64,000 nucleotides of DNA from Lachnospiraceae bacterium (GTDB taxonomy: Bacteria; Bacillota; Clostridia; Lachnospirales; Lachnospiraceae), in the NCBI GenBank assembly GCA_949383255.1, contig CASJPF010000004.1, forward strand, positions 62,001 through 126,000. The letters are read 5' to 3'. This document shows, piece by piece, positions 2,831 through 61,923 of the stretch (position 1 is its first letter; every line of letters begins with the position of its first letter). The notes beneath the pieces are model-generated. The model was not told where the DNA came from and did not search any database. It saw only the letters and a program-made list of their open reading frames with translations. The position numbers were made by a program, and so were the translations under genes.

Positions 2831-2914
2831 GTACACGGGCACCCAAGGGAAGTATATCAGTAAAGCTGATGTGTCCGTCACACGAGTAGGGGAAGTAGCC
2901 TTCTCTACTCGATT
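2831..2914 (+). repeat. Dispersed post-terminator repeat element, copy 1
   Basis: About 85 bp starting GTACACGGGCACCC. Hairpin 1 is ATCAG-TAAAG-CTGAT and hairpin 2 is GAGTAGGGGAAG...CTTCTCTACTC, followed by GATT. It matches copies at 36.7, 45.8 and 60.8 kb in order and spacing. In hairpin 1 the outer pair is A-T here and G-C in copies 2 and 3, a compensatory change that suggests an RNA structure. It lies between the clpX terminator and lon. Confidence 0.7.
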
Positions 2915-2937: not shown

Positions 2938-5343
2938 ATGGAGCAGATAACGACAGCATTACCTTTGGTGGCACTGCGCGGGTTAACAGTAGTGCCGGGT
3001 ATGATTATGCATTTCGATTTGAACAGAGATATGTCCAAAAATGCGATTGAGCAGGCACTAAATCATTTGCAGAAAGTGTTGCTTGTGCCACAGGTGGATC
3101 CAGAGGAAGAGAATCCGGAGGAAGATGGTTTATATAAAGTGTGTACAGTGGCCAATATCAGGCAGGTCACAAAACTTCCGAATGACATTGATAGGGTGAT
3201 GGTGGAGGCTGTGACAAGGGCACGCATTTTAGAGCTGAGTGACAATGAGGGAAAGTATTTTAGTGCCTTCTATGAAGAGATTATCGATAAAGAAGAAGAG
3301 ATTCCACAATCTGAGAAAGAGGCATTGGCACGTACTTTGAAAGAAGTATTTGACACCTATGTCAGATTTTATCCCAAGATAGGAAAGAGTCTTGGAAAAT
3401 ATTTTAAGGATGATTGTAGTCTGGTCGTTTTAATAAATCAGATTTTGATTAACACTCCATTTACGTATGAACAGAAGCAACAGGTGTTGGAAATAGAAGA
3501 TATTGCACAACAGTGTGGTGAATTGGTGTTATTGATTATGAATGAGGCACAGATTGCAGCGATACGCACACAGCTGGCAGTAAAAATTCGGGAGAAAATA
3601 GACAAAAATCAGAGAGATTATGTTCTGCGGGAGCAGATGGAATATATTCAGGAAGAGTTGGGGGATAAAAATCAGTATTCTGATGTGAAACATTATGAAG
3701 AAGCGCTTGCCAAATTGAAGGCAGATGCGGAAGTTAAGGAAAAGATTAAAAAAGAGATTGCCAGATTTAAGACAATTATGGGTTCAAGTTCTGAGAGTGC
3801 AGTGGAGCGGGGATATATTGAAACATTGTTAGAACTTCCGTGGAATAAGGCGTCAAAAGACAACAATGATATCAACAGAGCAGAGGAAATCTTAGAGAGG
3901 GACCATTATGGATTGGAGAAGGTCAAGGAACGCATTGTTGAATATCTGGCAGTGCGGTGTTTGACCAGCAAAGGCGAAGCGCCAATTTTGTGTCTGGTGG
4001 GTCCTCCCGGAACAGGAAAAACTTCTATTGCAAAATCGATTGCTGAGGCACTCAACAAGAAGTATATTCGAATTTGTCTAGGCGGCGTGCGTGACGAAGC
4101 GGAAATTAGAGGACACAGAAAGACTTATGTCGGGGCGATGCCGGGGCGTATTGCAAATGGTTTGAAACAGGCGGGAGTATGCAATCCACTTATGCTGCTT
4201 GATGAAATTGATAAGGTTAGCAGTGATTACAAAGGAGATACATCCTCTGCGCTCTTAGAAGTGTTAGATCCAGAGCAAAACTGTCATTTTAGAGATCATT
4301 ATGTGGAATTGCCGCTTGATCTGTCTAAAGTTTTGTTTATTGCAACAGCAAATGACGCAGGCAATATTCCTAGACCACTATTAGACCGCATGGACATTAT
4401 TGAAGTTACAAGCTACACTGCGAATGAAAAATTTCATATTGCAAAAGAGCATCTATGGGAAAAACAACTAAAGAAAAACGGGTTGAAGGATTCCCAGTTG
4501 ACAATCAGTGACAATGCAATTAAGGCGGTAATTGACCAGTATACAAAAGAGGCAGGCGTGCGAAATTTGGAGCGAAAGCTTGGTACAGTTTGCAGGAAGG
4601 CCGCGCTGGAAATTTTGAAAAATAGAACTGGCAAAAAACAAAAGCAGGTACAAGATAAGAGTATTCGTGTCAATAGTCAAAAGCTTGAAAAATATCTTGG
4701 AAAGCCCAAATACAGTGTGGATATGGCGAATGAGAAGGATGATGTCGGGATTGTCAGAGGGCTTGCATGGACAAGTGTCGGCGGTGATACCCTTCAGATT
4801 GAGGTAAACATTATGCCAGGCAAGGGTGAGATTGAGCTCACCGGAAAACTTGGTGATGTGATGAAGGAGTCAGCAATGACTGGAATTAGCTTTATTCGGT
4901 CAATTGCACCAAAGTATAAAATTGCGCCAGAATTTTTTAAGGAAAATGATTTTCATATACACATTCCAGAAGGGGCAGTGCCAAAAGATGGACCATCTGC
5001 GGGGATTACAATGGCGACAGCGGTATTGTCTGCCATCACTGATACGCCTGTCAAGGCAAAAGTCGCTATGACAGGGGAGATAACGCTGCGTGGAAGAGTG
5101 CTTCCGATTGGCGGACTGAAAGAAAAGCTGTTGGCAGCAAAGACAGCAGGTATTACAACAGTGCTTGTGCCAGAAAAAAATGAGAAAGATGTGGCGGAGA
5201 TTTCAAATGAAATTAAGTCAGGTATGGAAATCTGTCTAGTAGAGTCTATGGATGATGTGATACCGCTTGCTTTTTCGCGGGAAATTAAAGTTAAGAGCAC
5301 AAGATCCAAGACAAAGACTGGAAACAACAAGCAGGAGAAGTAA
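2938..5343 (+). CDS. lon: ATP-dependent protease La (Lon)
   Basis: Lon, the self-contained AAA+ serine protease that degrades misfolded and regulatory proteins. It has 801 residues, normal for the family. The N-terminal substrate-binding (LAN) domain starts ALPLVALRGLTVVPGM. The ATPase has Walker A GPPGTGKTS near residue 355 and Walker B PLMLLDEIDKV. The C-terminal protease has catalytic Ser in KDGPSAGIT near residue 687 and catalytic Lys in GGLKEKLLAA near residue 730. It starts after GGAGAGG. yihA begins 3 bases after its stop, so the two are translationally coupled. Confidence 0.98.
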   Translation: MEQITTALPLVALRGLTVVPGMIMHFDLNRDMSKNAIEQALNHLQKVLLVPQVDPEEENPEEDGLYKVCTVANIRQVTKLPNDIDRVMVEAVTRARILELSDNEGKYFSAFYEEIIDKEEEIPQSEKEALARTLKEVFDTYVRFYPKIGKSLGKYFKDDCSLVVLINQILINTPFTYEQKQQVLEIEDIAQQCGELVLLIMNEAQIAAIRTQLAVKIREKIDKNQRDYVLREQMEYIQEELGDKNQYSDVKHYEEALAKLKADAEVKEKIKKEIARFKTIMGSSSESAVERGYIETLLELPWNKASKDNNDINRAEEILERDHYGLEKVKERIVEYLAVRCLTSKGEAPILCLVGPPGTGKTSIAKSIAEALNKKYIRICLGGVRDEAEIRGHRKTYVGAMPGRIANGLKQAGVCNPLMLLDEIDKVSSDYKGDTSSALLEVLDPEQNCHFRDHYVELPLDLSKVLFIATANDAGNIPRPLLDRMDIIEVTSYTANEKFHIAKEHLWEKQLKKNGLKDSQLTISDNAIKAVIDQYTKEAGVRNLERKLGTVCRKAALEILKNRTGKKQKQVQDKSIRVNSQKLEKYLGKPKYSVDMANEKDDVGIVRGLAWTSVGGDTLQIEVNIMPGKGEIELTGKLGDVMKESAMTGISFIRSIAPKYKIAPEFFKENDFHIHIPEGAVPKDGPSAGITMATAVLSAITDTPVKAKVAMTGEITLRGRVLPIGGLKEKLLAAKTAGITTVLVPEKNEKDVAEISNEIKSGMEICLVESMDDVIPLAFSREIKVKSTRSKTKTGNNKQEK

Positions 5344-11205: not shown

Positions 11206-11217
11206 AACAATTTTATA

Positions 11218-11279
11218 CGCGCACCCGTGCAAAAGAAATATACCATAAAAGTGAGCACGGGCTGCGCGATAATTTTTTT
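11218..11279 (+). terminator. Terminator after the HAD gene
   Basis: Stem CGCGCACCCGTGC (11218-11230) pairs with GCACGGGCTGCGCG (11255-11268, one bulge), then a 7-base T-run. It lies between two convergent genes. Its GC-rich start resembles the 5' part of the dispersed repeat, but the second hairpin is absent. Confidence 0.7.
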
Positions 11280-11811
11280 ATGATTCTGTGGATTCTGTGT
11301 TTGAATCGTCAAAAAATTCTTCGGAAGTATTCTCTGGGTCAGAAGACTCCGCATACGTTACAGAGACAGAGCCAGATTGGATATCCTCGGAAGCTGTTGT
11401 GTCAGAAATTGGCGCAGCAGACATATTTACCTGTGTATAGACAGGTTCAACAGAGGGGGAAGTCATCTCACCGATGATTTCTTTTGCTTTGTCAATTTTC
11501 TCGGACACATTAAAATGTTCGAGTTTTTCTTTTGTCTTATCAAGTGTCTCAATTACTTTCTCACCGATAATTTCTTTCGCATTGTCTATATCAATTGATA
11601 CATATGGACGGTTTTTGCTACCTGTGGAGTTTGCGGAGTCAGAGGAGAAATCTTCGTCGTCAAGATCCTCGTCAAAATCGTCAAAATAATCAACGTCTTC
11701 AAGTTCATCTTCGGAAGCGTTTGTCTTCTTGTGAAGATAATAATAAGTTCCCGCAGCTGCAGCACCGGCGAGGGCACTGAATAAAACAAGTTTGCTAAAT
11801 TTCTTAGCCAT
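11278..11811 (-). CDS. Membrane-anchored acidic protein, unknown function
   Basis: A 177-residue protein. Residues 7-27 (LVLFSALAGAAAAGTYYYLH) form one N-terminal membrane segment. It is followed by a very acidic stretch (DELEDVDYFDDFDEDLDDED) and two amphipathic repeats containing the phrase KAKEIIGE/NAKEIIGE. The tail is Ser/Thr/Glu-rich. The layout resembles YtxH-like or general cell-envelope anchors, but no domain is recognised. It has a good ribosome site and ends convergently with the HAD gene. Confidence 0.75.
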   Translation of the reverse strand: MAKKFSKLVLFSALAGAAAAGTYYYLHKKTNASEDELEDVDYFDDFDEDLDDEDFSSDSANSTGSKNRPYVSIDIDNAKEIIGEKVIETLDKTKEKLEHFNVSEKIDKAKEIIGEMTSPSVEPVYTQVNMSAAPISDTTASEDIQSGSVSVTYAESSDPENTSEEFFDDSNTESTES

Positions 11812-36643: not shown

Positions 36644-36672
36644 AAAAGAAGTGGGAAGCTCACTTCTTTTTT
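36642..36672 (+). terminator. Terminator after the small hypothetical gene
   Basis: AAAAAAGAAGTG / CACTTCTTTTTT with a short loop and T-run. Confidence 0.85.
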
Positions 36673-36673
36673 A

Positions 36674-36760
36674 TGCGCAGATCCGTGCAGAGGAGGTAAG
36701 TTACTAACATGGTGCACAGGTCGCGCGGCGAGTAGGGGAAAAATTTTTCCCTACTCGATT
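36674..36760 (+). repeat. Dispersed post-terminator repeat element, copy 4
   Basis: Begins TGCGCAGATCCGTGC directly after a terminator and ends with hairpin GAGTAGGG...CCCTACTC, then GATT. The first half has diverged from the other copies, but hairpin 2 is perfect. It lies between convergent genes. Confidence 0.65.
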
Positions 36761-36789
36761 ACATACAGGCAACTAAAGAGAAAAAGGGT

Positions 36790-42717: not shown

Positions 42718-42750
42718 AAAAGGGTTCGCGTTTCGAGGCGAGCCTTTTTT
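42718..42750 (+). terminator. Terminator after the DUF342 gene
   Basis: GGTTCGC / GCGAGCC with one G-T pair and six T. Confidence 0.7.
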
Positions 42751-42800
42751 GTGCACATGGGTACTCAAAGAAAGATTGTTAGCGAATTGGCAAACGTGTG
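42751..42800 (+). repeat. Partial dispersed repeat, copy 5 (5' half)
   Basis: GTGCACATGGGTACTC begins right after the terminator T-run and resembles the TGCACACGGGCGCC start of copy 2. The second hairpin is missing and folC begins at once. Confidence 0.4.
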
Positions 42801-42815
42801 ATCAGAGGAAAAACG

Positions 42816-45795: not shown

Positions 45796-45830
45796 AAAGA
45801 GGACATACCAGTTGGGTACGTCCTCTTTTT
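45796..45830 (+). terminator. Terminator after the TPR gene
   Basis: AAGAGGACATACC pairs with GGTACGTCCTCTT, then a T-run. Confidence 0.85.
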
Positions 45831-45831
45831 A

Positions 45832-45918
45832 TGCACACGGGCGCCTAAATGAAATATGTCAGCAAGCTGACGGACGTCCGGCGCGCGAGCAGGGGAAGTA
45901 ACCTTACCCTGCTCGATT
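45832..45918 (+). repeat. Dispersed post-terminator repeat element, copy 2
   Basis: TGCACACGGGCGCCTAAATG, then hairpin 1 GTCAG-CAAG-CTGAC and hairpin 2 GAGCAGGG...CCCTGCTC, then GATT. Compared with copy 4, the hairpin-2 T-A pair is C-G here on both sides, a compensatory change. It lies just before the sigma-F operon. Confidence 0.72.
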
Positions 45919-45962
45919 AAGAAAAGATGATTGAAAAATTGTAGGGAAATGGAGGAGCGTAA

Positions 45963-60766: not shown

Positions 60767-60798
60767 AAAAAGGCATATCGTTAGATATGTCTTTTTTT
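60767..60798 (+). terminator. Terminator after ilvE
   Basis: AAAAAGGCATATC / GATATGTCTTTTTTT with a 4-base loop (one G-T pair) and T-run. Confidence 0.87.
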
Positions 60799-60800
60799 GA

Positions 60801-60883
60801 TACACACACGTCCAAATGAAATATGTCAGCAAGCTGACAAACGCCTAGCGCGAGTAGGGAAGATGAGACTTCCCTGCTCGATT
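60801..60883 (+). repeat. Dispersed post-terminator repeat element, copy 3
   Basis: TACACACACGTCCAAATGAA, hairpin 1 GTCAG-CAAG-CTGAC, hairpin 2 GAGTAGGG...CCCTGCTC (one T-G pair), then GATT. The segment AAATGAAATATGTCAGCAAG is identical to copy 2. It lies between ilvE and the convergent tetR gene. Confidence 0.72.
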
Positions 60884-60909
60884 GTCAAGATCCGTGAACT
60901 GGCATGTCA

Positions 60910-61554: not shown

Positions 61555-61729
61555 AAAGAATGCCACCTTTCTATTTAGAATAAATTTCTTACTATGCAGT
61601 TGAATTATCAAAAGATGTTTTAATCTACTCTTTCATCTCAGACAAAGAATGTTCTTACTTTTATAAGTGACGAGTTCAATACAATTTTGTGTCGGTGCGA
61701 GTACAATCTTCGACTGAGATAAGCATCCA

Positions 61730-61780
61730 GCAGGATTGCAGGCGTGCAAATCCATTATATGTCAGCAGAGCTGACCCGCA
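61730..61780 (+). repeat. Partial dispersed repeat, copy 6
   Basis: GGCGTGCAAATCCATTATAT then hairpin GTCAGC-AGA-GCTGAC. It resembles the first half of copies 2 and 3; hairpin 2 is absent. It sits in the tetR upstream region. Confidence 0.4.
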
Positions 61781-61923
61781 AATTTTCATATTGTAAATGG
61801 TGCTAAGCGACACTGAAATAATGGGTAATTAATATAAGTATATCATAATTGTATTTTGGAAACAATGAAAAAAGTGTCACAAAAAGATACGAAAATTAGA
61901 GATAAATTTTGTGGAAAACACAC

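Follow-up and report, generated by a model that had tools for sequence, protein, structure and literature searches.

What kind of object is the two-hairpin repeat that lies between clpX and lon in this genome, and is its paired structure kept for an RNA that works where it is found? The window analysed, a stretch of 64,000 nucleotides (contig CASJPF010000004.1, positions 62,001-126,000; C4:62001-126000), belongs to a Lachnospiraceae MAG of 4.38 Mb in 169 contigs. A covariance model, R1, was built from 17 copies of the repeat and run on the window and on the whole genome. The results showed four full copies in the window (54-101 bits), all on the + strand and each behind a terminator stem with a T-run, and chance is excluded for them both by their E values, about 1e-8 to 1e-18 when just the window is searched, and by ~100 more copies genome-wide. 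The copy flanked by clpX (1490-2779) and lon (2938-5343), whose products were assigned as ClpX and Lon by NCBIfam, occupies 2829-2914 (2829-2915 by the model; 71.2 bits, E 5e-12). Its landing site is the intrinsic terminator behind clpX (2798-2828, +; GACGCCGCCTT...AAGGCGGCGTC, then TTAT), the stem of which is kept in relatives without the element, and its own 3' hairpin, P3, spans 2883-2911 (+; CGAGTAGGGGAAG...CTTCTCTACTCG, then ATT). The second copy (36673-36761; 54.1 bits, E 1.3e-8) follows a terminator at 36646-36672 (+; AAGAAGTG..CACTTCTTTTTT); the third (45831-45919; 101 bits, E 8e-18), with a TPR-protein ORF on one side and a spoIIAA-like gene on the other, follows a terminator at 45798-45830 (+; AGAGGAC..GTCCTCTTTTT); and the fourth (60800-60884; 75.3 bits, E 9e-13) follows the terminator behind ilvE (60772-60799, +; GGCATATC..GATATGTCTTTTTTT). 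All four terminators were read directly from the letters. A weak or decayed copy without a good 3' hairpin was also matched at 11217-11286 (+; 26.7 bits, E 0.003).

The unit is ~86 nt long. AT-GCRCA is followed by a stem of 9 bp, a one-sided loop of 11 nt that is conserved, a tip hairpin of 5 bp and a second hairpin that ends in CGATT. With flanks, the consensus of the copies reads ...TTTTT-AT-GCACACGGGCGTCC-AAATGAAATAT-GTCAG-CAAG-CTGAC-GGACGCCCGG-CGCGCGAGTAGGGGAAG..CTTCCCTACTCGATT. In hairpin 1, a long stem, the 11-nt loop is confined to the 5' side and the 5-bp tip forms the end, while hairpin 2 is a nearly perfect stem; folding of single copies gave z from -2.9 to -8.2. At least five subfamilies can be told apart by their outer stems (CGGGTGTCC/GGACACCCG, TGGGCACCC/GGGTGCCCA, GACCTGCGC/GCGCAGGTC, CGCCGATGC/GCATCGGCG and CGGACGCGG), with the design constant among them. 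In the window, the copy at 45831 represents subfamily A and that at 36673 subfamily B, which shares the design and on folding again gives both hairpins (z -6.1), with an unrelated outer stem, GATCCGTGC/GCACAGGTC. The preliminary description had listed four copies (2831, 36674, 45832 and 60801) on one common sequence plan. All four are full copies by R1 and the common design stood, but a common sequence did not: TGCACACGGGCGCC, said to be shared by all, is exact only at 45832, has 2 mismatches at 2830 and lies beyond the 3-mismatch limit in the other two. Furthermore, ACGGGCGCC, taken for plain shared sequence, is the 5' arm of the outer helix with GGACGCCCG as its partner, and the ATCAG/CTGAT pair quoted as hairpin 1 is merely the tip of a much longer hairpin. 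The paired-arm changes quoted for the two hairpins are real. As for the two partial copies, 42751 is a decayed 5'-hairpin remnant directly 3' of a terminator T-run (42750-42805, +; read directly and folded, no model match), whereas 61730 falls in a distinct though related three-hairpin repeat. The terminator stems at L301:57-81, upstream of 1479 in L011 and upstream of 1501 in L158 resemble the element's 3' hairpin (AATCGAGCAGGG..CTCGATTTTT), each being followed by a copy, and these loci suggest that the 3' hairpin may turn into a host terminator.

The repeat is abundant and of restricted distribution. R1 gave 127 matches at E<=1 in the whole genome (4.4 Mb), ~100 of them at E<0.01, and copies were found in 29 of the 35 other members of the genus. 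Outside the genus, carriers numbered at least 13 of the 390 genomes sampled from the order Lachnospirales (15 counting the window genome and one congener), and no other carrier appeared among 399 genomes of the phylum. Both scans give lower bounds, as their filters were strict and few candidates were taken from each genome. Named carriers are Lachnospiraceae bacterium UBA7205, isolate bin44o, strain 526-35 and Parablautia intestinalis. Rfam (4227 families) returned nothing above the gathering score at the element in the window and the loci searched, and the open-access literature yielded no publication on the 86-nt repeat in Lachnospiraceae. Phage carriage was considered for one viral contig with the 20-nt core, but with 25 model positions aligned at 24.5 bits it does not represent a copy.

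That copies begin at intrinsic terminators, as first described for the window, was borne out for most copies of the genome. Positions -5 to +4 read TTTTT-AT-GC in most copies, and a T-run of four or more lies at the start of 78 of the 95 non-tandem copies. A stem-loop could be detected directly upstream in 61 of these 95, compared with 89 of 1865 copy-free TTTTAT sites (4.8%) and 3.75% of random positions. The preference was repeated in an unbiased sample made up of the window and 0.8 Mb of G021, a related genome (20 of 33). The A-rich loop could conceivably pair with the T-run upstream. The orientation of copies to the terminator is fixed, the gene upstream is co-directional in 85 of 95 cases, and the median distance from its stop is 70 nt. 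Two copies of the window genome lie between a SAM-riboswitch terminator and a metK or metK-like gene at paralogous loci (L042:1311-1600 and L144:3015-3320), where different subfamilies occupy an equal position. At L042, an ATG within the element starts a reading frame that stays open into metK. The element reshapes transcription-unit ends genome-wide, the clpX-lon gap and the metK riboswitch leaders included.

Such a location raises the possibility of a cis-acting RNA at mRNA 3' ends, one that serves stability, processing or termination backup and works together with the terminator wherever it is sited. The siting of copies directly after the terminators of co-directional genes agrees with this, as do the two copies in SAM-riboswitch/metK leaders, which are transcribed on terminator bypass, and the covariation. 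The arms do change together, as had been claimed from four copies, and do not differ at random. Among 105 distinct copies of the window genome, double-sided changes occurred at 27 of 28 pairs, and compensatory cells numbered 465 versus 183.5 in shuffled alignments, with slid controls at 50-88. In a 26-copy alignment drawn mostly from other genera, 96.6% of cells were paired and compensatory cells numbered 170 versus 47. These counts lean towards the model to which the alignments were fitted, and a plain MAFFT alignment (A3) agrees with them. Full pairing is retained in subfamilies with unrelated outer stems, indicating that the covariation is very strong.

We reasoned from the one-sided defects, since an RNA maintained in place is expected to show a strong preference for G-U. 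The preliminary reading of selection on RNA in situ finds no support here: across ~100 copies of the window genome, defects that keep a wobble pair (G-U, 202) and those that break it (A-C, 169) were about equally frequent (p=0.10, two alignment columns with fixed non-canonical pairs left out), and in the set mostly from other genera there were 16 G-U versus 10 A-C, with G-U making up 2.8% of helix cells; strand-specific mutation bias and alignment fitting affect the same counts. The near-equality of the two classes suggests that settled copies decay near-neutrally, without RNA upkeep at each locus, and the structure is probably needed for mobility and not for work at each site. A cis-acting RNA is further opposed by the confinement of the element to part of one order, by orthologous genes whose copies are absent, decayed or replaced, and by the consideration that transcription should mostly have ended behind a terminator, so that we regard this reading as quite improbable. 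For covariation-based searches for non-coding RNA, the case carries a caution, in that a dispersed repeat can covary strongly as a mobility substrate and not as a cellular RNA.

Comparison of orthologous terminators between the window genome (G000) and related genomes (G021 and others) addresses whether the copies come and go. The clpX-lon gap is filled in G000, and G007 has a diverged copy there in an identical position, while in several species, G021 included, the terminator stands with no element or with a short remnant. At the 45831 locus, the orthologous terminator bears other subfamilies, tandem arrays or nothing, depending on the species. An old insertion at many terminators, followed by sequence replacement through recombination or gene conversion with little new insertion, would fit the observation that site pairs of G000 and G021 were, among the sites compared, both occupied more often than not and by different subfamilies. 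Yet at the L050 locus the terminator is retained in G021 and the element is cleanly missing, outgroup sites at clpX-lon are empty, and genomes G386, G331 and G343 contain near-identical expansions, which in G386 and G331 lie behind unrelated T-runs and therefore indicate recent spread. An old origin of the occupied sites is accordingly an improbable account. No long target duplication was seen in the filled/empty comparisons, in which the ends are fixed to within 1-2 nt because the empty sites differ too much among species, so that a short duplication may have gone unseen. We infer movement itself from sequence comparison, and gene conversion among copies could account for part of the subfamily replacement.

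Taken together, these results point strongly to copies that move and afterwards decay unmaintained. The reading we prefer, to which we assign a probability of about 0.55, is that of a non-autonomous structured mobile element of ~86 nt, aimed at terminators. Its mover would most likely be an enzyme, perhaps resembling those of IS200/IS605, that handles it as folded single-stranded DNA. Acting in trans, this putative enzyme would recognise the single DNA strand in its folded form, through the stems and the conserved one-sided loop; the two ends would be joined (...CGATT|GCACA...); and insertion would go 3' of a hairpin and a T-rich, TTTAT-like target, as with HUH transposases of the IS200/IS605 family. 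Copies do occur in head-to-tail arrays with the junction CGATT|GCRCA. The 3' hairpin with its ATT resembles a small terminator, and new copies would land behind old ones, which would explain the arrays. Judged by eye, first and later copies of an array do not separate by score, and a youngest-first polarity is not apparent. An extended tandem array in strain 526-35 (QXWV01000119.1; L129:2467-2921) has the core four times in a stretch of 0.5 kb, with spacings of 87 and 174 nt.

For the mover, PF01797 (Y1/RAYT) proteins were searched in the window genome, the 35 genus members and nine carriers outside the genus, and showed no linkage to the element. Y1_Tnp is absent from several carriers (e.g., G013 and G034) and present in the copy-free G016; around Y1/RAYT genes there were no R1 matches except one near a pseudogene in G021; and resident IS200-like copies have ends unrelated to those of the element. 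A Y1 transposase or RAYT was consequently rejected as a linked mover, given the differing ends and associated repeats and the carriers without Y1. The assembly of the window genome is 86% complete and absence from it is weak by itself, and near-complete carriers likewise have no linked Y1 gene. RAYT-like genes in the carriers G343 (L354) and G386 (L355) have GGGGACGGGG-type repeats at their flanks and form a REP system unrelated to the element. A long autonomous version, in which an ORF would separate the 5' from the 3' hairpin, was not found in 0.86 Mb plus the loci of the named genomes, the 5'-only candidates being mostly chance matches or decayed copies.

A different route would be a retro-mobile small RNA, which is transcribed and then inserted by target-primed reverse transcription behind a terminator hairpin in the manner of group IIC introns. 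These introns insert directly behind a stem-loop, of a terminator or another inverted repeat, and a T-rich stretch (PMC7923331), and the strand and position of the element relative to the T-run agree with theirs. By contrast, the element is 86 nt long without ribozyme domains, and membership is not claimed. No group II ribozyme was detected by Rfam (window at the gathering threshold, loci by E value), and no class-C maturase was found in the assembly. The two RVT_1 proteins of the genome, an HNH-bearing group II type and one in a DGR-like setting, were rejected as movers, neither being class C. The DGR-like one (L326; C20:35865-39527) is accompanied by a small upstream ORF and a possible variable protein. 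The poverty in G-U also speaks against a helix selected as RNA, and a retro-mobile origin appears unlikely to us.

A three-hairpin repeat related to the element was also seen. In G343, G313, G110 and G423, the 5' core lies within larger repeats that have their own upstream palindrome or hairpin and another 3' hairpin. The same kind occurs at L174:2843-2980, at L345:1454-1582, at several G021 loci and in the window (61690-61790, +; recognised by pattern and fold), where the 5' palindrome, the linker GAGATAAGC, the core and the 3' hairpin follow one another with the 3' side decayed. Eight near-identical copies in G343 mark it as recently amplified there. Its own palindrome occupies the place that the host terminator has in the two-hairpin element. 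A new transposition system could be envisaged, with an enzyme that targets a terminator hairpin and T-run, a two-hairpin 86-nt strand as cargo, insertion possibly coupled to terminating transcription, arrays arising through the terminator-mimicking end of the cargo, and the three-hairpin repeat as a second lineage whose own 5' hairpin replaces the host terminator. We put this forward tentatively, as a possible but doubtful extension. Terminators are mostly harmless places for insertion, and the element offers a natural read-out of site-selective insertion aimed at them; the enzyme, if found, could yield a new insertion tool.

How does the element compare with known systems? In the Bacillus cereus group, bcr1 and the group A bcr repeats are small, intergenic, structured and MITE-like, with up to ~130 copies per genome and a TTTAT motif (PMC6542083, PMC3446304). 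As far as the available parts of these reports go, they share with the element small size, structure, TTTAT association and the lack of a named dedicated transposase, but they are longer (~147-167 nt), belong to another host group and are not reported to target terminators, the likeness being one of description. BOX, RUP and SPRITE of Streptococcus pneumoniae are small, interspersed, folded and probably parasitic repeats, SPRITE being enriched at gene 3' ends (PMC3049150). Unlike the element, BOX and RUP are described with terminal inverted repeats, and SPRITE is itself terminator-like whereas the element sits behind a terminator. As to features of DDE-type MITEs, the ends of the element, GCRCA and CGATT, do not make up an inverted repeat.

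REP and REPIN sequences of the GTAG type are mobilised by RAYTs. They resemble the element as palindromic dispersed repeats with complementary stem subfamilies and clusters, and differ from its two unlike hairpins, same-orientation arrays and terminator T-run target. Among REPs, which are palindromic and dispersed with alternative complementary stem subfamilies and clusters, the CGTC type has no known transposase (PMC3733652) and is likewise an orphan. Of the identities proposed at the outset, a REP-like or mobile one is the best reading, but strictly speaking the element is no REP: in ~100 copies no unpaired GTAG or CGTC tag was found at the hairpin feet, which read GCRCA... and ...CGATT, GTAG occurring solely inside the P3 stem, and no RAYT is associated, those of the carriers G343 and G386 sitting with other repeats, contrary to what REP/REPIN would lead one to expect.

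Elements of the IS200/IS605 family have subterminal hairpins at their ends. With the element they share a T-rich 5' target, fixed orientation, hairpin ends and joined-end junctions, as seen in the TTTTTAT|GC logo and the CGATT|GCRCA head-to-tail junctions, while no element with such ends was found around tnpA/tnpB. Group A IStrons of this family insert 3' of TTGAT, ATTAT or TTTAT (PMC4227781). The copies make up a real and abundant family in gut Lachnospiraceae, apparently undescribed so far, of small and structured elements that are probably mobile and directed at terminators, an orphan in the way of bcr1, BOX and the CGTC REPs, for which IS200/IS605-type single-strand transposition would be, by analogy and with no claim of membership, the closest mechanistic match.
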